A stretch of DNA of 55,466 nucleotides, taken from an archaeon 13_2_20CM_2_53_6 (GTDB lineage Archaea; Thermoproteota; Bathyarchaeia; 40CM-2-53-6). The translations under genes were made by a program, and so were the position numbers. This document shows, one piece after another, positions 6,597-36,830 of this stretch (its first letter is position 1; each line of letters opens with the position of its first letter). The stretch lies in assembly GCA_001915065.1 (NCBI GenBank), contig MNDT01000062.1, positions 1 to 55,466 on the forward strand, written 5' to 3'. A model generated the notes under the pieces. It saw only the letters and a program-made list of their open reading frames with translations, was not told the origin of the DNA and searched no databases.

Positions 6597-7463
6597 ATGC
6601 TTCAGAGAGACGGGCTCACAGCAACCCTTCTCGCAGGAGTCCTATTTGGGACCAGCGTCCCGGTAATCAAACTGGGCCTTGACCTGAACATTCCTCCCGA
6701 ACTGTTTGTAGAGTTGCGGTTCGCGATAGCATCCGGACTCATCCTCCTACTCCTCCGAGGAAAAGGATGGGTCAAGTGGGAGCTTTTCAAGTCAAGAGCA
6801 ATCTGGACTGTAGGACTCATCAATGCTGCAGGATACGTTACTCAGTTCCAAGGACAAGTCCTCACCACCTCGTCAAACGCGGCGCTCATAATCAGCACCG
6901 CGGCGCTCATGATTCCCATACTCTCACTGGTTTACGTAAAAGAGAAAATGGGTGGAAGAAAGATCGCCGGAGTAGTGACAGGATTCATCGGAACAACCCT
7001 AGTGGTCACCAGGGGCCAACCATTATTGCTAGGAAGCTCTGAGTTGGCTGGTGATATCCTGATCCTAGCAACAGCAGTCACCATAGCATTGGTTTTCGTT
7101 CTTTCAAAGCGCATCGTTGAAAGGCGCGGCGGAAGACCAGTCACAGGGGCGTTACTTGTCACGACTAGCCTTCTCCTGCTACCCACAACCCTTCTGGATC
7201 TGGGCCATCCACCTAACCTTACGATGACAGCATGGTTCTACATTAGCTACCTCGCTGTGTTCGCAACGGTGGGAGCCTACTACTATTTCATGAAAGGACT
7301 CGAAACAGTCTCGCCCACAGTATCCTCCATAATCCTACCCATCGAAGTGATAGTCGCGGTCGTATTGTCCGTACTACTCTTCAACGATCCGTTCAATCTC
7401 TACTCTGGTACAGGCGCAGTCCTGATAATCGCAGGTGTCGTTCTAGTATCCACTGCGGCCTGA
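6597..7463 (+). CDS. EamA/DMT-family transporter
   Basis: Multi-TM, duplicated EamA-like halves. Confidence 0.9.
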   Translation: MLQRDGLTATLLAGVLFGTSVPVIKLGLDLNIPPELFVELRFAIASGLILLLLRGKGWVKWELFKSRAIWTVGLINAAGYVTQFQGQVLTTSSNAALIISTAALMIPILSLVYVKEKMGGRKIAGVVTGFIGTTLVVTRGQPLLLGSSELAGDILILATAVTIALVFVLSKRIVERRGGRPVTGALLVTTSLLLLPTTLLDLGHPPNLTMTAWFYISYLAVFATVGAYYYFMKGLETVSPTVSSIILPIEVIVAVVLSVLLFNDPFNLYSGTGAVLIIAGVVLVSTAA

Positions 7464-7497
7464 CAGTAGCAAAAACAAACTGGTTAGTATGCTGGTC

Positions 7498-8205
7498 CTA
7501 TTGGTGAGCCCCACAGTTGGGACAATTGCTAGAGTTCTGGTTCATGAGAGCCTGGCAATACTTGCAACGGACCTGGGCGACCTGTTGGGGAGGCATCTGC
7601 TGCTGTGGAGGCATACCATACCCCGGCATCGGCTGTCCATACCCGGGACCCATAGGCATCCCATAGCCCGGATTCGGATTATAACCCGGATTGTATCCGG
7701 GCGGACCATAGCCCTGCTGCACCGGGTATCCTCCAGGCATATACCCCGGCATCGGCTGGGGCATGCTGCTGCCCGGCATGAAAGCAACCTGCGTATGACC
7801 AGTCATGTCCGGCCGGCCCTTGACCTGGACCACAGCCTTGAGACTATTCTCAATCGATCCTCCAGCTTTTGTTGGGCGACAGGACGGCATTCCGACGCTG
7901 AAAGGGAATGTTTGGGTTGGACCACTCCCAAAATCGTTGGGCCCGGTGACCTGGACGTCTCTAGAGAAGAGAACGTTCTGCCTGCGTTGATGCTCCTGAA
8001 CCCGCGTATTGTTGATGGTGACCCATACGAGCTCTGTATAATTTTCGAACACTCTAGCCTCGACTCTAACCCCGAGTGATTGGACATACTCGCCCGCCTC
8101 GACGTTTACCTTTCCAACTACAGCCTCTCCCTCTACGAAGGTAGGCTTATCGAAGCTGATCCAGACTTTCCCCTTCGGAGCTTTGAGGTGATCAAATAGG
8201 CCCAA
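7498..8205 (-). CDS. Arrestin-like/Spo0M-like N-domain, PGY-rich linker, C-terminal zinc ribbon
   Basis: KVWISFDKPTFVEGEAVVGKVNVEAGEYVQSLGVRVEARV...; then PGYMPGGYPVQQGYGPPGYNPGYNPNPGYG; then CKYCQALMNQNSSNCPNCGAHQ. Confidence 0.7.
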   Translation of the reverse strand: MGLFDHLKAPKGKVWISFDKPTFVEGEAVVGKVNVEAGEYVQSLGVRVEARVFENYTELVWVTINNTRVQEHQRRQNVLFSRDVQVTGPNDFGSGPTQTFPFSVGMPSCRPTKAGGSIENSLKAVVQVKGRPDMTGHTQVAFMPGSSMPQPMPGYMPGGYPVQQGYGPPGYNPGYNPNPGYGMPMGPGYGQPMPGYGMPPQQQMPPQQVAQVRCKYCQALMNQNSSNCPNCGAHQ

Positions 8206-8330
8206 GACTGTTCTCCGCCAGATATGCGAGCCTTCGCTGGAACCCGCCTATCAACAGAGCGTAACCCTACGGGCGAGGCTATAGAGAAACTCGTAACGTA
8301 TTCTACCGGACCCGGCGTGTCAGAAGGTTT

Positions 8331-8349
8331 AATTTTTCCCAGAAAAATT
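8331..8349. promoter_or_regulatory. Perfect 7-bp inverted repeat AATTTTT-CCCAG-AAAAATT upstream of grpE
   Basis: Read directly; lies about 55 bp upstream of the likely GTG start of grpE (8404). Confidence 0.4.
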
Positions 8350-8403
8350 GGGTTGTCAGACGAAGTAAGAACTGGCGAGCGGACTGGGAAAGAGTGGTCT
8401 CTG

Positions 8404-26750: not shown

Positions 26751-28577
26751 ATGATACTCTTTCTATCAAGAAACTCCCTATCATATTTTCAGTCATACAA
26801 GGACTACTTCGTCGCAATCTATCTCATATTTCTCGGGTTCCCGGTGGGAGACCTATTGCTCATGGCCTCCTCTTCGTCAGCATTGCAGAGGATCTCAATA
26901 CAAGGAATCGTGACATCCGGGTCTCTCATCGCAATCATTTGGGGCTATGTTGCGACAAAACTGTACGTTTATCCTGAAACGTTCTCTCCAAAGAGGCTTA
27001 TCTCAAGGCCGTTCCGTCCGATTTTTCTCGCCTACGCGCTATATCTACTGCCGATGATTTTTGCTCTCATCGACGGATGGGTAGATCCGCTCGCGATCAC
27101 TTCGACCTCAATTCAGGCTACATATCCTTTCGACAATATCACGCTCCCTTCCTCGACGGTATCTGTCCTACTGGTAGGGATGGGATTGGGTGTAGTTGCC
27201 GTGTTCACATCCTACCCACTGGCCGTCCTCTCACGACGTCGGGCACTAGTAAAGGACCGAGAAGTTAGGCGGGCTCTGAGATTAATTGCGTCATCTTTTG
27301 GTGTGATAAGTCTTGCTTCGGCCCTTGGCTTCGGTCTCCTAGCTTTTGGGCAGAATGTTCTCGGACCCGCAAATTTTCTCTCAGTGATTCTGATCATAGT
27401 TGCGGTTCAAGCCTTCCGAAAACCGACCTTTCTGAAAACCTTCCTTGGCGTTGTCCCCTCGCTTCAGTCTTCGCCGGGGGCTTCCCATTATGATCAGATG
27501 CTACTGATTCATGGTCCTGGAGATGAAAAATTTGGTCCGATCGCCAAATACATCCTGGACGGGGTCAACCAGCGAGAACGAGTAATCTACTTTCATGATG
27601 GTGATGTTTCTGTCGTTTCGGAGGGCCTTTCCCGTCAAGGGGTAGATGTTACTAGACTTATGTTGAAGGGGGCTCTGAGGGTTCCTCCTTTAGGAAGTGC
27701 GTATCCGTCGAGAGGCGTGCTGGACGACACACCTCTCGAGGTTGTCCAAGAACTCGCTGCCGAGGCGAAGACTCTGGGCAACGAGGGGCTAAGAGTAATC
27801 CTAGACTATGATGACTTCATCATACGTCCTCTCCAAAAGTTTGTCAACCATTTAACCGACCCGAGATGGACGAGCCCGGACCATCATCTGCATGTGCTTA
27901 TGGGATTCAACTCGACAACATTTCGGGGAGAAGAAGCGTCTCTAGCCGAACTCGAGAGAAAGATACGGACCCTTGATCTCTCAGAAGCACTTGACACCTT
28001 CTCAAGTACAGTCGGACTGTCCCACGACGAAATTTCAGGAAGGAAGTTGCTCCTAGAGTTTGACCCCCAAGGAGACTATGAGCGCGTCTTCAAGTCTCTG
28101 CTGGCGGAGACTGCTTCCAACTTTGAAAGGACAGTTGTCTTCACTAGGAAAGATAGCTTGATCTATTCACTTGTGGAAAGGCAACCAGCAGCGAAAATCT
28201 TCGTCATGACATCAAGAGTATCATATCCGAAGATGGAGAATGAGAACCTGTTTCTGCTGCCGACATATGACACTTCCTTACTTCTTGATGCGCTGAACAA
28301 GACCATTGAAGCCTATACAGGCTCAGACTTCACTATTATCTTCGACAACATCTCACACCTCGTGTTCACACTAGGGCCTGAGAGAACATACTCGCTCGTT
28401 CGACAGGCCCTCGAACTGATGATCTCAGACAAGATCACTGCGATCTTCTCGATGAACTCCAAAGCCCACGACCAGAAGATCATGTCGACGTTTGAAAACA
28501 TGTTCGACCTAGAACTCGTATGTGAAGCGGGGAGGAGTGTTCCTGCGATCAGAAAGAAGATAACTGTTCCGGGCTAG
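26751..28577 (+). CDS. Membrane protein with N-terminal TM domain, MEDS-like domain and C-terminal DUF835-like domain
   Basis: About six or seven TM; YDQMLLIHGPGDEKFGPIAKYILDGVNQRERVIYFHDG (MEDS-like); LLLEFDPQGDYERVFKSLLAETASNFERTVVFTRKDS...VSYPKMENENLFLLPTYDTSLLLDALNKTIEAY (DUF835-like). Confidence 0.7.
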   Translation: MILFLSRNSLSYFQSYKDYFVAIYLIFLGFPVGDLLLMASSSSALQRISIQGIVTSGSLIAIIWGYVATKLYVYPETFSPKRLISRPFRPIFLAYALYLLPMIFALIDGWVDPLAITSTSIQATYPFDNITLPSSTVSVLLVGMGLGVVAVFTSYPLAVLSRRRALVKDREVRRALRLIASSFGVISLASALGFGLLAFGQNVLGPANFLSVILIIVAVQAFRKPTFLKTFLGVVPSLQSSPGASHYDQMLLIHGPGDEKFGPIAKYILDGVNQRERVIYFHDGDVSVVSEGLSRQGVDVTRLMLKGALRVPPLGSAYPSRGVLDDTPLEVVQELAAEAKTLGNEGLRVILDYDDFIIRPLQKFVNHLTDPRWTSPDHHLHVLMGFNSTTFRGEEASLAELERKIRTLDLSEALDTFSSTVGLSHDEISGRKLLLEFDPQGDYERVFKSLLAETASNFERTVVFTRKDSLIYSLVERQPAAKIFVMTSRVSYPKMENENLFLLPTYDTSLLLDALNKTIEAYTGSDFTIIFDNISHLVFTLGPERTYSLVRQALELMISDKITAIFSMNSKAHDQKIMSTFENMFDLELVCEAGRSVPAIRKKITVPG

Positions 28578-28653
28578 TGTCACATTGAATTGTGTTGCAC
28601 TTCGGTTCTGTATAGAACGTGACGATGTTTCGGGACGGTTCTACTCGCGCACA

Positions 28654-29643
28654 CTATCGGAGTGATCTGCTGCCCTCGAATCTCTCGAGTAGCTCAGCAA
28701 GATAACCGGAGAAGCCTCTGATATTGAGACTCCGAACTTCTTTCTCATACTCAGCAACCCTTCTAATGTAGGTATACGCCTTGTTCTTGAATATCCATTC
28801 CAGCTTACTTAACCTCGGAAGGACGGCCTTATCCCCGAGTTCCTCCTTTCGAATCAAGCCCTTTCTCATCGCGAGAGAGATGATGGGACTAGAGACGTCA
28901 CGCTCTACGAGTTCGCTCGGATAAGTCGTCAACAAGTTTGCTATATGGGCGATCTTTTGCGCGAGGCTAGCAACGGTTCTCATGGGCCCCAGCTCTTTCA
29001 TGTCAAACGCTGGTGAGCACATGAGGTCCATATCCATCGCGAGTTCAACTACACATCCGTACGATGAATAGAAGTTTGTTTCAACTGGATTCTCGATGCC
29101 CTCAGTGTTTGCTAGATAACTATACAGCATGGAAGAGAGAACTTGGCGAAGATCGAAATAGAAAATCCTCTCGAACTCGCCAAATCTAGGATATAGGGAA
29201 ACGGAGGAAATGAGATCCTCCCACACCTTCCGCGCGACCTGAAGATAATCATTTGTTTCAACTGAAGTATCCTCGGCTTGCCATGGGATTTTGGTGAGCT
29301 GTTCAAGCATGGCGAAACTGCGCGTCGTGTAGTTATCTGCCAGATCGTCAGCTAGAATGTCGAAGATAGCAAGTTTGGTCTTGTCTTCACCAAGAACCTT
29401 TCTTCGGTCAAAACTCACGCTGGGCAGGGTTATCCAAGAGTACACATCGTGAATCCAAGCGAAGTACCCGATATTCCTGCGACCTACAGATTTGTATAGG
29501 TCGAGGACCTCCGTCAATTCTAGCCGTTCCCTGGATCGACTGAGGAGTCTGAGTTCCGCTGCAGTCCGTTCTGAACCATCATGCGTAGTTCTAGCTTGTT
29601 CTCCACCTTTTGAATCGTTGAGGATCTGGTGAGTTACTGACAA
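28654..29643 (-). CDS. Class I terpene synthase-like (isoprenoid synthase fold) protein
   Basis: FDILADDLADN (DDxxD) and, about 135 residues later, IANLLTTYPSELVERD (N-x3-T-x3-E, NSE-like). Confidence 0.65.
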   Translation of the reverse strand: MSVTHQILNDSKGGEQARTTHDGSERTAAELRLLSRSRERLELTEVLDLYKSVGRRNIGYFAWIHDVYSWITLPSVSFDRRKVLGEDKTKLAIFDILADDLADNYTTRSFAMLEQLTKIPWQAEDTSVETNDYLQVARKVWEDLISSVSLYPRFGEFERIFYFDLRQVLSSMLYSYLANTEGIENPVETNFYSSYGCVVELAMDMDLMCSPAFDMKELGPMRTVASLAQKIAHIANLLTTYPSELVERDVSSPIISLAMRKGLIRKEELGDKAVLPRLSKLEWIFKNKAYTYIRRVAEYEKEVRSLNIRGFSGYLAELLERFEGSRSLR

Positions 29644-29814
29644 TTAGCATCCTTTGTGTTTGCTTAGTTTCACCTGTGTCCTTACATTATAATGGTGGCC
29701 TACTTTTCTAGGGAAAAAAATTCTACGCGCCTTATATAGGCCGCATATTTGGTGCTAGTTGGCCCCTCAATAGCTATCGGGAATGTACAAGAATCTTTCT
29801 AGGGAACTCAGCCT

Positions 29815-30166
29815 TTAGGCGAAGTGGTCTTTACTCGCCCAAAACTGATAGTTCTTCCTTAGTCCAAGAAACAAGAAGAGGGCCCCTACAGTCTGCATCA
29901 CTCCCCCTACGGCCAACAGGCCCATAGGTGCGAGTGAATCGACGAGGAACATGACCACACCGACTCCAAAGAACAGCACTTAGCGATATGTACGTCCAAG
30001 CTCTAGCGGCTACGTTTCCCTTGAAGAGTTTCAGAGTCTTGAGACCATAGTAGAGCAGCACCATGGTCAACGCCGTGCCGACGGTGTAGACGCTTAGAGA
30101 AGCAAAGTCCAAGGAGTCCCAGCTCATTTCCGCTTGAAACTCGTTATTTACAAGAATTGTTACCAT
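29815..30166 (-). pseudogene. Small membrane protein, frameshifted
   Basis: N-terminal part in the ORF-track frame (...AARAWTYISLSA); membrane-like sequence continues in the +1 frame: VLFFGVGVVMFLVDSLAPMGLLAVGGVMQTVGALFLFLGLRKNYQFWASKDHFA*. Confidence 0.75.
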
Positions 30167-30293
30167 CGAATTTCACACGGCCCGGGAGCGTGAGAAACTT
30201 GGAACCACGGAGTTGGTGCTTGAGGGTCAATTCGTTAAACTGCTGGGACCTCGGATTCTCGAGTGTCTCGGTCCCTGGTTGACGGGTTGTTAA

Positions 30294-31505
30294 TTGGCTT
30301 CAACTCCTGAATTCTCCCTCCTCCTCAACCTCGGACTGGCAATATTCGCGGCTTTCGCCTTCAGCATCCTCTTCTCGAAGATCAAGCAACCCGTTGTTCT
30401 GGGTCAGCTGATCGCTGGAATCATCATCGGACCTTTCGGCCTAGGACTCGTCCAAGACCTAGGCGCGATCAGTCTTCTCGCCTCGCTCGGAATAGTGCTC
30501 CTCCTATTCACCGTCGGGCTGGAACTCGACCCGCTAGAGATACGAAAGATCGGACCAGACAGTTTCATACTGACCACCGTAGAACTGACGATCAGTTTTC
30601 TCTCAGTCTTCGGCGTGGCACTCCTAGCTGGTCTAACCAGCATCGAGGGGGTTTTCGTCGCTGCGGTCGTGGCGACGACGAGCACTGCGATAATGAGCAA
30701 GATACTGCTGGAATCGAAAAGTTTCCACGCTAAAGAGTCCCAGATGGTCATAACAGCCTCAGTCATCGAAGACTTCGCCACCGTCTTCATCCTCCTACTC
30801 CTCCCAGGCCTCGCAGCAGCCAGCAACCAAGTTCCACCCTCCGAACTCGCATTACTGATAGCGAAAGGCATTCTCCTAGTTGCAGTCATCTTCGGCTTCG
30901 GCTGGAGAGTTGCACCACTCATCATTGATCGTATGACTGAGGGGGATCAAGAGTACAAGGAGACAGCGTTCTTGCTTGCTCTTTCCTTCGGATTCGTTTT
31001 CGCTGTACTCTCGTCTTTCTTAGGTTTCTCTCCAGCCGTAGGCGCCTTTCTGATGGGATTGATGATTAGAGGAAAGCAGGCTGAGTTCGTACTAAGCAAG
31101 GTTGGTCCGATAAAGGACCTCTTCATAGTCCTCTTCTTCGTCTCTATGGGAACACTCATCAACATCGGAGCTGTCCTCACCCTTACTCTTCCTATACTCG
31201 CTGTTCTGACAACAGCGATCATTGGTAAGTTCTGGGGCTGCTGGACTGGAGCGAAACTATCCGCCGCGAAACGGCAAGCAACCAGAGTGGGCGTGTCAAT
31301 GCTCCCCCGGGGAGAGTTCTCGTTCATAGTAGCGAGCGAAGGGACGGGTCTTGGTGTGGCGTCGCAGATACTCTTTCCCATCGCCGGGCTGACGACTCTG
31401 ATCAGCTCGATACTATCGTCAATCGGGATGCGACTGATCAAGACGCGTACGATGAAAACTAACGCAATCACCGTCCCAGTAGAGAAGGTCGGGAAATCGG
31501 AGTAA
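30294..31505 (+). CDS. Cation:proton antiporter, CPA2/KefB-like membrane domain
   Basis: KQPVVLGQLIAGIIIGPFGLGLV...LLFTVGLELDP; multi-TM. Confidence 0.93.
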   Translation: MASTPEFSLLLNLGLAIFAAFAFSILFSKIKQPVVLGQLIAGIIIGPFGLGLVQDLGAISLLASLGIVLLLFTVGLELDPLEIRKIGPDSFILTTVELTISFLSVFGVALLAGLTSIEGVFVAAVVATTSTAIMSKILLESKSFHAKESQMVITASVIEDFATVFILLLLPGLAAASNQVPPSELALLIAKGILLVAVIFGFGWRVAPLIIDRMTEGDQEYKETAFLLALSFGFVFAVLSSFLGFSPAVGAFLMGLMIRGKQAEFVLSKVGPIKDLFIVLFFVSMGTLINIGAVLTLTLPILAVLTTAIIGKFWGCWTGAKLSAAKRQATRVGVSMLPRGEFSFIVASEGTGLGVASQILFPIAGLTTLISSILSSIGMRLIKTRTMKTNAITVPVEKVGKSE

Positions 31506-34084: not shown

Positions 34085-34333
34085 CTATTCTTGCCTGGGA
34101 GCCTGCCCCATCTTCTTTCTAATCTCTTCGCTGAACCGCCGCTTCTCATCATCGTTCTTCGCCATTATCCATTCAAGCTTCAGCCTGAACACTTCTTCCT
34201 CCAGACTCGGCTTCTCCTTCTGGACCGCGCTCGCCGTGCCTGGAGCCAACTGAGATCTGGCGCCTAACCTTGGCAACTCGGATTTAACAGGTTCTGAACC
34301 CGCGTCCAGCTCAGAAGCCAAGAACCGCACCAA
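34085..34333 (-). CDS. Small charged helical protein overlapping the 3' end of the ubiA-like gene
   Basis: SLEEEVFRLKLEWIMAKNDDEKRRFSEEIRKKMG. Confidence 0.5.
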   Translation of the reverse strand: MVRFLASELDAGSEPVKSELPRLGARSQLAPGTASAVQKEKPSLEEEVFRLKLEWIMAKNDDEKRRFSEEIRKKMGQAPRQE

Positions 34334-35258
34334 CGGTGAATCCGAGGATGGCGAGAATTCCGAACGCGAGGTGGAGGAATATAGTGTTGGCGTTGGCCGG
34401 AATTATCGCGTGGGGGTCCTTGTAGTTGGCTCGAAGAACTTTGACAGCTTTCATCGCGAACGGAAGGCTCAGCAATGCGACTAGCGAGGCTAGACTCGTT
34501 ATCGGGACAAGTGAGAAGACTGCTAGCAGGGCATAGACTATGAGCAGGAAGTATGCCGCGACGACCATTCCAATGTAGACGCCGATGGATCGCGAGTAGC
34601 CAAGCCTCAACACGAGAGTCCTCTTCCCAACAGCGCCATCAGCATCCATGTCAGGAAACTCGTTGATCCATAGAATAGCCGCGACCAGAAGTCCAACCGG
34701 GATCGATGCGAGCAGCGGCTCCCAAGCAAAACTTCCGGCCTGGACATAGTATGCGCCCAGCGTCATGATAGGACCGAAGTTGACCCCTACAATGACCTCT
34801 CCTATTCCCCGATAGGCGAAACGGAAGGGCGGTCCCACGTAGAAGTATGAAGAGATGACTCCGATGACGCCGAGTGCGAACAGGTAGGGTAGAGAAAAGG
34901 CGAAGACCAGGTAGAGTCCGATTAGACAACCCAGAAACAGGCACATGCTTGAAACCAGAAGATGGGTCGAGGGCTTGACGAGACCTGCCGTCAGGACTCG
35001 CCCTCCACCCGCGAACGGGTTTTGATGCTTGACCTGGAAATCGTTTCCGCTCTTGAAGTCGAAATAGTCATTGAACATGTTGGTGGCGATGTGGATCAAA
35101 CTCCCCCCCACCAGGGTCAGGAGAAACGTGGCTAGGTTGAATACGTGGGCCAGTTGGAGCGCGAGGACCCCCCCGAGGACGACCGGGACGAACGATGCTT
35201 GCAAGAACGGAACGCGCATGGTTTTCAGCCAGAGCAGCAAGAACGGGGGTCTTGCCAC
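34311..35258 (-). CDS. UbiA-family prenyltransferase (MenA-like)
   Basis: NMFNDYFDFKSGND prenyltransferase motif, multi-TM; GTG 35258 favoured over the ORF start 35405. Confidence 0.9.
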   Translation of the reverse strand: MARPPFLLLWLKTMRVPFLQASFVPVVLGGVLALQLAHVFNLATFLLTLVGGSLIHIATNMFNDYFDFKSGNDFQVKHQNPFAGGGRVLTAGLVKPSTHLLVSSMCLFLGCLIGLYLVFAFSLPYLFALGVIGVISSYFYVGPPFRFAYRGIGEVIVGVNFGPIMTLGAYYVQAGSFAWEPLLASIPVGLLVAAILWINEFPDMDADGAVGKRTLVLRLGYSRSIGVYIGMVVAAYFLLIVYALLAVFSLVPITSLASLVALLSLPFAMKAVKVLRANYKDPHAIIPANANTIFLHLAFGILAILGFTVGAVLGF

Positions 35259-35426
35259 GTCTGAAACCGGGCTAGCTGTCAACGAACATTGGTCTCCTGC
35301 TGACTCTGGCGGGAATCGGGCCGGAGATGATATAAACACTTGATCACTTATAGTTCGGACTACGGGACGAAAGGCTAAAGTCGACTGGGAGAGCCGAGTC
35401 GGCACGCTGTTTGAAGGGAGTATAGT

Positions 35427-36830
35427 TTGGAAGAGAGAGACGTAGTCGTAGTAGGCGCCGGAATAGCAGGCTGCATGACCGCAGCCACAATAGCGATCAA
35501 ATCCAAAGGCAAAATCGACGTTCTGCTTCTCGACCGGAACCCCCAGTCGGAAGTAGGTAAGAAGACCACCCTAGGCTGGGTCTGCGGCGACGCAGTCGGA
35601 GAGCATCACATCAAGTTCCTCAACGAACACCTCGGCGTAACCTACGGCAAACCCGAGATGGAAAACCGGGTCACAGCCGTCTACGTTTACTCACCCGACA
35701 TGAAAGTCAGGGTCCCATTCGAGGGTCCCGGCTATGTACTGGATCGGCCAAAGTTTGGCAAGCGATTGCTTGAGGATGCGCTGAAGTCTGGAGTAGAATT
35801 CCGTGGCGGCGTCCAAGCGCTGGACCTAGTCGAAGATTCAGGCCGGATTGTGGGGCTCAAGGGACAGACTGTCGGCGAGAATGTTAACAAGCCGTTCGAG
35901 ATAAGATCCAAGCTCGTCATCGACACGTCAGGCATGTCCACAAAGCTTCGTAGAAACCTTCCCATCCCGAGCCACATTGAGAAAGAGATCGACAAGGACG
36001 ACATTGAGCCGACAGCAAGGCTAAACGCAAAACTCCGGGACGGAGTTGAGGTCGAACCCTTCCACTGCGACATCTACCTCGACCAGGAGAAGGCACCGGG
36101 AGGTTATCTGTGGCTGTTTCCGAAGAGCGAAGACAAAGTCAACATCGGTCTGGGGATTCAGCAGAAGAGAAGCTCGAAACCCTTGAGCGCACTTCTGAAG
36201 GACTGGCTCGCAACAGACGACCGGTTCAAAGAGATGACTCCTCTCAGCGATGACAGCAACCTGACCGGAAGCTGGCAGGTCTCGGTGAGACACCAGAACG
36301 ATTGTCTCGTCGCGAACGGGTACATGATCTGTGGCGACACGGCATGGTTTCCCAATCCAATAAGCGCAGGCGGCATTGGTCCCGGGCTGATCGGAGGAGT
36401 CTTAGCGGGAGAGACAGCGATTCGCGCAATAGAGTCCAACGACTTTTCGGAGAAGAACCTCTGGCAATACAACATCGACTTCGTCAACCATTACGGAAAC
36501 AAGACGGCCGGGCTGGAGGCGTTCAGAATGTACCTCCAGACACTGAACAATCAGGAGATCAACTACGGCATGCGCCATTTCTTGTCGGGTAAGGAGGCCA
36601 CTGAGATCTCACTCGGCGAGATGCCTCACCTATCACCCCTCGAGAAGCTCGTGAAACTGTTCCTGGGACTCGGATCCTACAAAGCCTTCCGGGGACTAGT
36701 GTACACGATGAAGCAGATGGAGACGCTCAACAATCTTTACCAGAACTATCCTAAAGACCCCTCACAGTTCGAAGCGTGGAAGCACCAGGTAGATTCGATT
36801 CTAGCTGAAACCAGAACACGGTTCGGCTAG
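35427..36830 (+). CDS. Geranylgeranyl reductase-family FAD protein
   Basis: EERDVVVVGAGIAGCMTA; YLWLFPKSEDKVNIGLGIQ; GDTAWFPNPISAGGIGPGLIGG. Confidence 0.92.
   Translation: MEERDVVVVGAGIAGCMTAATIAIKSKGKIDVLLLDRNPQSEVGKKTTLGWVCGDAVGEHHIKFLNEHLGVTYGKPEMENRVTAVYVYSPDMKVRVPFEGPGYVLDRPKFGKRLLEDALKSGVEFRGGVQALDLVEDSGRIVGLKGQTVGENVNKPFEIRSKLVIDTSGMSTKLRRNLPIPSHIEKEIDKDDIEPTARLNAKLRDGVEVEPFHCDIYLDQEKAPGGYLWLFPKSEDKVNIGLGIQQKRSSKPLSALLKDWLATDDRFKEMTPLSDDSNLTGSWQVSVRHQNDCLVANGYMICGDTAWFPNPISAGGIGPGLIGGVLAGETAIRAIESNDFSEKNLWQYNIDFVNHYGNKTAGLEAFRMYLQTLNNQEINYGMRHFLSGKEATEISLGEMPHLSPLEKLVKLFLGLGSYKAFRGLVYTMKQMETLNNLYQNYPKDPSQFEAWKHQVDSILAETRTRFG

Follow-up and report, generated by a model that had tools for sequence, protein, structure and literature searches.

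A candidate non-canonical class I terpene-synthase-like family in Bathyarchaeia, encoded at a locus that can carry an unrelated gene instead

Results

The locus and its neighbours

We describe here a gene, referred to as T, that lies on a 55,466-nucleotide stretch (contig MNDT01000062.1) of the archaeon 13_2_20CM_2_53_6, the whole of which is called the window. The plus strand at 28654-29643 contains many stop codons, and the 329-codon open reading frame is that of the minus strand. The features of the locus are as follows.

26751..28577, plus strand: 608-aa membrane protein with a MEDS (DcmR-type sensory) domain (Pfam PF14417; synteny)
28654..29643, minus strand: terpene-synthase-like gene (the T allele), 329 aa, TTG start (open reading frame, homologues, AF2 model with Foldseek, dN/dS)
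28912..28938, minus strand: N236-LLT-T240-YPS-E244, NSE-like second metal motif (conservation; aligned by hhalign opposite NDxxSxxKE of terpene synthases)
29056..29070, minus strand: Y192-S-S-Y195-G196, at the place of the effector triad (sensor Arg) of canonical enzymes (hhalign; the interpretation is inferred)
29332..29349, minus strand: DDLADN (D99-N104), first metal motif, where a long predicted helix ends (conservation; hhalign against the DDxxD of known terpene synthases)
29663..29740, minus strand: leader or promoter-like block common to both alleles, ATATAA..GTAGA.TTTTTT..GAAA.GTAGG..A..ATTATA..GACA.AG.TGAAACTAA (upstream alignment of 16 genomes)
29831..30166, minus strand: small membrane protein directly upstream of T (synteny)

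T is arranged tail to tail with the MEDS gene, which is the convergent neighbour in all genomes that have either T or the alternative allele H described below. On the other side, where the contig reaches that far, are the small membrane protein gene and a Na+/H+ exchanger gene, and beyond this block a TFB gene and an FAD oxidoreductase gene. The small membrane protein of the window appears to be frameshifted relative to intact relatives of about 95 residues, either truly or through an assembly error. The MEDS protein has an N-terminal membrane part and matches two haloarchaeal domains of unknown function (DUF7090 and DUF7504) weakly, and it is highly variable, with 46-97% identity between species whose adjacent TFB proteins are more than 91% identical. 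The GC contents of T, H, and the MEDS gene (0.46-0.51) are lower than those of their neighbours (0.53-0.58). No Rfam match was found in 28400-30400. Some 5 kb away, at 34311-36830, there is a divergent pair of UbiA prenyltransferase and geranylgeranyl reductase genes, likely lipid genes; we considered them as part of the same system and rejected this, as they do not adjoin T in most genomes and lie outside the conserved block.

Conservation and distribution of the T family

The sequence-only reading had called attention to DDLADN and N236-x3-T240-x3-E244, about 135 residues apart in the 329-residue product, with Leu at the second position of the NSE motif where Asp is usual. Both motifs are exactly where it placed them, the distance from D99 to N236 is 137 residues, and position 237 is indeed Leu. 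A DDxx[D/E] motif followed 110-170 residues downstream by [ND]xxx[ST]xxxE arises in 0.67% of shuffles of the protein (0.25% if only N is permitted), and given that the reader was scanning about 50 proteins, the motif pair alone is a suggestive but weak sign. We consider the pair to be real because it is conserved across homologues whose pairwise identity falls as low as 25%.

The source genome (1.79 Mb, 80% complete) has one copy of T. Ten of the 38 genomes of the order carry it, nine from the same genus (the source genome included) and one from a sister genus, with records that describe soil 'Candidatus Bathyarchaeota' and 'Crenarchaeota 13_1_40CM' MAGs. A class-wide search gave no T homologue in further genomes of the class, a phylum-wide search gave two distant copies in genome G512, which share about 27-30% identity with the window protein, and further searches centred on G512 yielded another pair in G672 and one truncated copy in G867; these three genomes are of a family and order outside the class of the window but inside its phylum. 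The T homologues found, with identities of 25-97%, are thus confined to one Bathyarchaeia family and a few scattered genomes elsewhere in the phylum, a patchy spread as expected of a transferred accessory gene.

Among the 14 full-length members, 36 of 329 columns are invariant, including D99, D100, D103, N104, T240, and E244. Counting the truncated homologue as well, DDxxD and T240 are each present in 15 of 15 sequences, and E244 in 14 of 14. Residue 236 is Asn in 13 full-length members and Asp in one, a substitution at this position of the NSE/DTE motif that known enzymes also tolerate, and residue 237 is Leu, Met, or Ile throughout the family instead of Asp. Loss of these residues from homologues would have refuted the sequence-only reading; this was not seen, the single N-to-D change being the only departure in the full-length set. 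Y241, E247, and D249 are also invariant and extend the motif to N-L/M-x-x-T-Y-P-x-E-x-x-E-x-D, and the other invariant charged residues are R56, K88, E188, D204, D206, and R222. The truncated member (L107, from G867), in which the contig ends before E244, keeps DDxxD and T240-Y241 and, in the family alignment, carries Leu at position 236 and Ile at position 104. The dN/dS ratio between T orthologues is 0.06-0.16, and T is therefore a working gene.

Two further observations concern the distant genomes. A relative in the genus of G512 contains what appears to be a decayed T-like remnant (G678:C13:8562-8762, L110), with five stops in 67 codons and a weak match (E 4e-4). Beside the truncated homologue in G867 are a 448-aa orphan with DD-rich motifs and no database match, and a V4R-domain protein (L108:5432-6778 and 6860-8368, both plus strand); we tested for a link between this V4R-domain protein and the window's MEDS protein and found no support for it.

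Predicted fold and profile comparison

A first AF2 model built from 10 close homologues was poor (pLDDT 57), and nearly all of its top PDB matches were already class I terpene synthases. The model built from 15 homologues, distant ones included, has a pLDDT of 85.1 and a pTM of 0.84 and upholds the earlier view of an all-helical protein. All of its best 50 PDB matches by Foldseek are class I terpene synthases of bacterial, fungal, or plant origin with probability 1.00, at TM scores (query length) of 0.48-0.63 and 9-15% identity, the best E-value being a modest 8e-4. The prediction was run without templates and without terpene synthase sequences and hence owes little to the motif argument, with the reservation that the pattern may be among what AlphaFold has learned. 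A class I terpene-synthase-type fold is thus very likely, resting as it does on prediction, and the earlier inference of an isoprenoid-synthase fold or a derived relative of it passes the structural comparison that could have refuted it.

By hhalign the T family profile was compared with 13 terpene synthases encoded on plasmids, two of them haloarchaeal. The alignment spans 197 columns, places both DDxxD and NSE in register, and scores 21.5. The controls score lower: 11.4-19.3 over short stretches for nine other families (eight neighbour families and the polyprenyl synthetases), 15.0 when the profile is reversed, and at most 19.9 in 150 column shuffles, none of which reached 21.5. The positive control, terpene synthases against the polyprenyl (FPP) synthetases to which they are known to be related, scores 24.2. 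Because the absolute probability is low (about 1%, P = 0.05), this profile alignment supports homology without proving it alone.

Neither Pfam nor NCBIfam gives a family for the window protein at E up to 10, Pfam likewise fails for all members, and PADLOC and PDB-sequence searches with the protein, the members, and the profiles returned nothing relevant; weak LAGLIDADG and reticuline oxidase scores were dismissed as chance. PF19086 detects none of the T members. Its sole match over the cut-off in 260 genomes of the class (L080) was examined as a candidate and is a polyprenyl synthetase adjoining a geranylgeranyl reductase, not a terpene synthase.

Relationship to known terpene synthases

Measured against canonical class I enzymes, T meets the DDxxD/E motif, the (N/D)Dxx(S/T)xxxE triad in all 14 full-length members with only the second, non-ligand Asp missing, and, by prediction, the fold, but it does not meet the sensor Arg, the RY pair, or the family sequence profiles. 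In the hhalign alignment Y192 stands opposite the invariant Arg of the reference set that acts as pyrophosphate sensor, and residues 180-200 of the window protein contain no Arg or Lys, the canonical sensor Arg being about 46 residues before the NSE Asn. At this position the family has Y192-x-x-(Y/H)195-(G/S)196, with the spacing of R-x-x-D-G, which we infer from the alignment to be a modified effector triad. No conserved R-Y pair is present near the C-terminus of T, as it is in the reference set. Lacking the sensor Arg and the RY pair, T is filed here as non-canonical class I terpene-synthase-like rather than canonical.

With canonical bacterial enzymes (epi-isozizaene synthase, 3kb9; T-muurolol synthase, 9hr0; type I diterpene synthase, 9m25; pentalenene synthase; selinadiene synthase) T shares the predicted fold, the size, and the order and spacing of DDxxD and N-x3-S/T-x3-E, but no pairwise or family-profile similarity to them is detectable, and T is without their sensor Arg, RY pair, and NSE Asp. 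The closest likeness is local, N-D-L-C-S-L-P-K-E-I-A-G-D of 3kb9 resembling N-L/M-x-x-T-Y-P-R-E-L-x-E-x-D of many T members.

Non-canonical terpene synthases with the class I fold that are hidden from sequence search have been described as classes IB-IF (BalTS, AsR6, PeuTPS, and others), the candidates being of actinomycete origin and having homologues among bacteria, fungi, protists, and plants, and archaea not being named (PMC11234867). T resembles them in having a predicted terpene-synthase fold that escapes sequence search and an expected Mg2+ dependence. The class-specific motifs of IB (DYLDNLxD and DY(F,L,W)IDxxED) and ID (D(N/D), ND, and RxxKD) (PMC11234867) are not met in the T family, which conserves DDxxDN and NxxxTYPxE instead; this comparison is by motif inspection only and the sequences were not compared. 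The class ID enzyme PeuTPS is active without a recognisable effector triad (PMC11234867), so the loss of the triad does not exclude activity of T.

The haloarchaeal terpene synthases of Halocatena marina (WP_264556469) and Actinarchaeum halophilum (WP_330633571) are archaeal like T and align with class I enzymes, but they are canonical by sequence (NDVYSLQRE and NDVYSLQKE, with sensor Arg) and adjoin a polyprenyl synthetase gene, and no pairwise sequence relation between them and the T family is detectable. We note in passing that the haloarchaeal plasmid genes at L113:2494-3933 and L119:2509-3900, which lie beside a polyprenyl synthetase and encode a class I terpene synthase domain of the canonical type, are misleadingly annotated as SRPBCC family or hypothetical protein.

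An alternative allele and a shared leader

Members of the genus that lack T are not empty at the locus. Seven of them, and a second short contig of G012, carry in the same place and orientation a different gene, H, an open reading frame of about 220-240 codons (about 230 aa) whose start codon is unclear in several members. The H sites are as follows.

L062:3058-3747, minus strand: H
L063:6360-7049, plus strand: H
L064:1057-1743, plus strand: H
L065:315-1034, plus strand: H
L066:3-659, plus strand: H
L067:1881-2597, minus strand: H
L068:6598-7290, plus strand: H
L050:220-900, plus strand: H

H has no Pfam, NCBIfam, or PDB match. Its conserved residues are D62, E94, D119, W122, R151, H153, D157, and H196-D197-x-H199, and the R-x-H-x3-D and HDxH patterns suggest a putative metal site. 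Homology of T and H was tested and is unsupported (hhalign score 13.8, P 0.45; hmmsearch E about 1). The stretch of about 78 bases that precedes the start (29663-29740) is strongly conserved between T and H loci, and conservation is much lower further upstream; the full two-part leader was not found in 748 kb of fetched loci other than at this locus and on the second G012 contig, which may be a strain variant or a contaminant. In a tree of the MEDS proteins the T/H label changes at least four times, as forced by well supported branches, and both alleles are under purifying selection (dN/dS about 0.06-0.18). We read the pattern as repeated exchange of alleles by recombination in the conserved flanks. 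A binning error is an unlikely source of the swap, with both alleles inside continuous contigs that have the same flanking genes.

Discussion

We propose that T is a non-canonical class I terpene-synthase-like enzyme that ionises prenyl diphosphates in a Mg2+-dependent manner, and put the probability of this reading at about 0.72, with Mg2+ binding, substrate, and catalysis all inferred. That T is a catalytic, prenyl-diphosphate-ionising enzyme at all is likewise an inference, and a probable one; whether it is a cyclase in particular is an even call from the same inferred catalysis. The protein would fold as a single helical bundle, with Mg2+ ions held between D99, D100, and D103 at the end of one helix and N236, T240, and E244 on another. 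The substrate would be an allylic prenyl diphosphate, either FPP or GGPP, supplied by the genome's own polyprenyl synthetases, with three Mg2+ binding its diphosphate; such substrates are plausible because the source genome has two polyprenyl synthetase genes. The diphosphate would then be pulled off, and the resulting carbocation would yield a cyclic or linear terpene or an alcohol. Without the sensor Arg and the RY pair, T must recognise the diphosphate in a manner that differs in its details from that of canonical enzymes, and the conserved K88, R56, R108, and R222 are candidates for this role. Counting against our proposal, there is no terpene gene cluster around T, and the same holds for the lack of family matches, the low hhalign probability, the modest Foldseek E-values, the missing sensor Arg, RY pair, and NSE Asp, the Leu at 236 of the truncated homologue, and the predicted nature of the structural evidence.

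Other functions for a protein of this kind have to be weighed. The lack of the sensor Arg and the change at the effector position hint at a different chemistry, and T could ionise a prenyl diphosphate within an isoprenoid-synthase fold and yet transfer the prenyl group to another molecule, as an N-prenyltransferase does, or hydrolyse it, rather than cyclise it. DsKabA (9m1w), an N-prenyltransferase with a terpene cyclase fold, is among the matches of the first, poor model, but the best 50 matches of the good model are all terpene cyclases or synthases, and we regard this function as unlikely. We are still more doubtful that T is a non-catalytic or repurposed protein of the same fold, for example one that binds prenyl or terpenoid compounds in partnership with the adjacent MEDS sensor. 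Its constant position beside the MEDS gene, its replaceability by an unrelated protein, and the loss of the sensor Arg would all fit such a role, but a pure binder needs neither DDxxD nor N/T/E, and all metal ligands are kept under strong purifying selection.

The polyprenyl synthetases and the squalene/phytoene synthases belong to the same fold superfamily, and the DDxAD of T presumably resembles the first motif of the latter, so that chain elongation or head-to-head condensation also needs consideration. The sequence-only reading had judged that T is not obviously a prenyl diphosphate synthase, and the evidence bears this out: T has one DDxxD where two Asp-rich motifs would be needed, hhalign against polyprenyl synthetases gives only 15.1 over 16 columns, and the genome already has ordinary polyprenyl synthetases. 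No protein of either kind is among the best 50 fold matches, T has no Pfam match, and a squalene/phytoene synthase (PF00494, SQS_PSY) was not detected in 16 related genomes including the source. We consider a function of this sort highly implausible, and prefer the prenyl-diphosphate-ionising, terpene-synthase-like enzyme.

The surroundings of T suggest what its product may be used for. PMC11507031, citing Anantharaman and Aravind (2005), gives simple hydrocarbon derivatives as what MEDS domains are predicted to sense. Both the adjoining sensor gene and the swapping at this locus point to an accessory small molecule more than to a core lipid, and because T is an alternative payload beside a MEDS sensor gene, it may produce a small signal or a specialised metabolite and not a housekeeping lipid. 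A bolder and rather unlikely extension is that the locus is a chemotype switch, in which one promoter and one MEDS sensor gene are combined with either T or H, as enzymes that make alternative signals or defence compounds.

All archaeal lipids are made from isoprenoids, and to our knowledge class I terpene cyclases are hardly known in archaea outside the haloarchaea. No account of such an enzyme from Bathyarchaeia or Nitrososphaeria turned up in the open literature, subscription papers and preprints not being covered; what is known already are the terpene synthases hidden from sequence search in bacteria (classes IB and ID-IF) and the canonical ones of haloarchaea. The T family hides from sequence search and keeps the catalytic metal motifs, and it would extend non-canonical terpene synthases to another domain of life. 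Its altered effector position offers a way to ask directly how much of the canonical machinery ionisation requires, and the swap locus provides a natural control, with two unrelated genes in one place behind one promoter-like leader. Were the chemotype switch true, it would mean a terpenoid-based chemical language in uncultured soil archaea, with recombination in the flanks exchanging its alleles between lineages.
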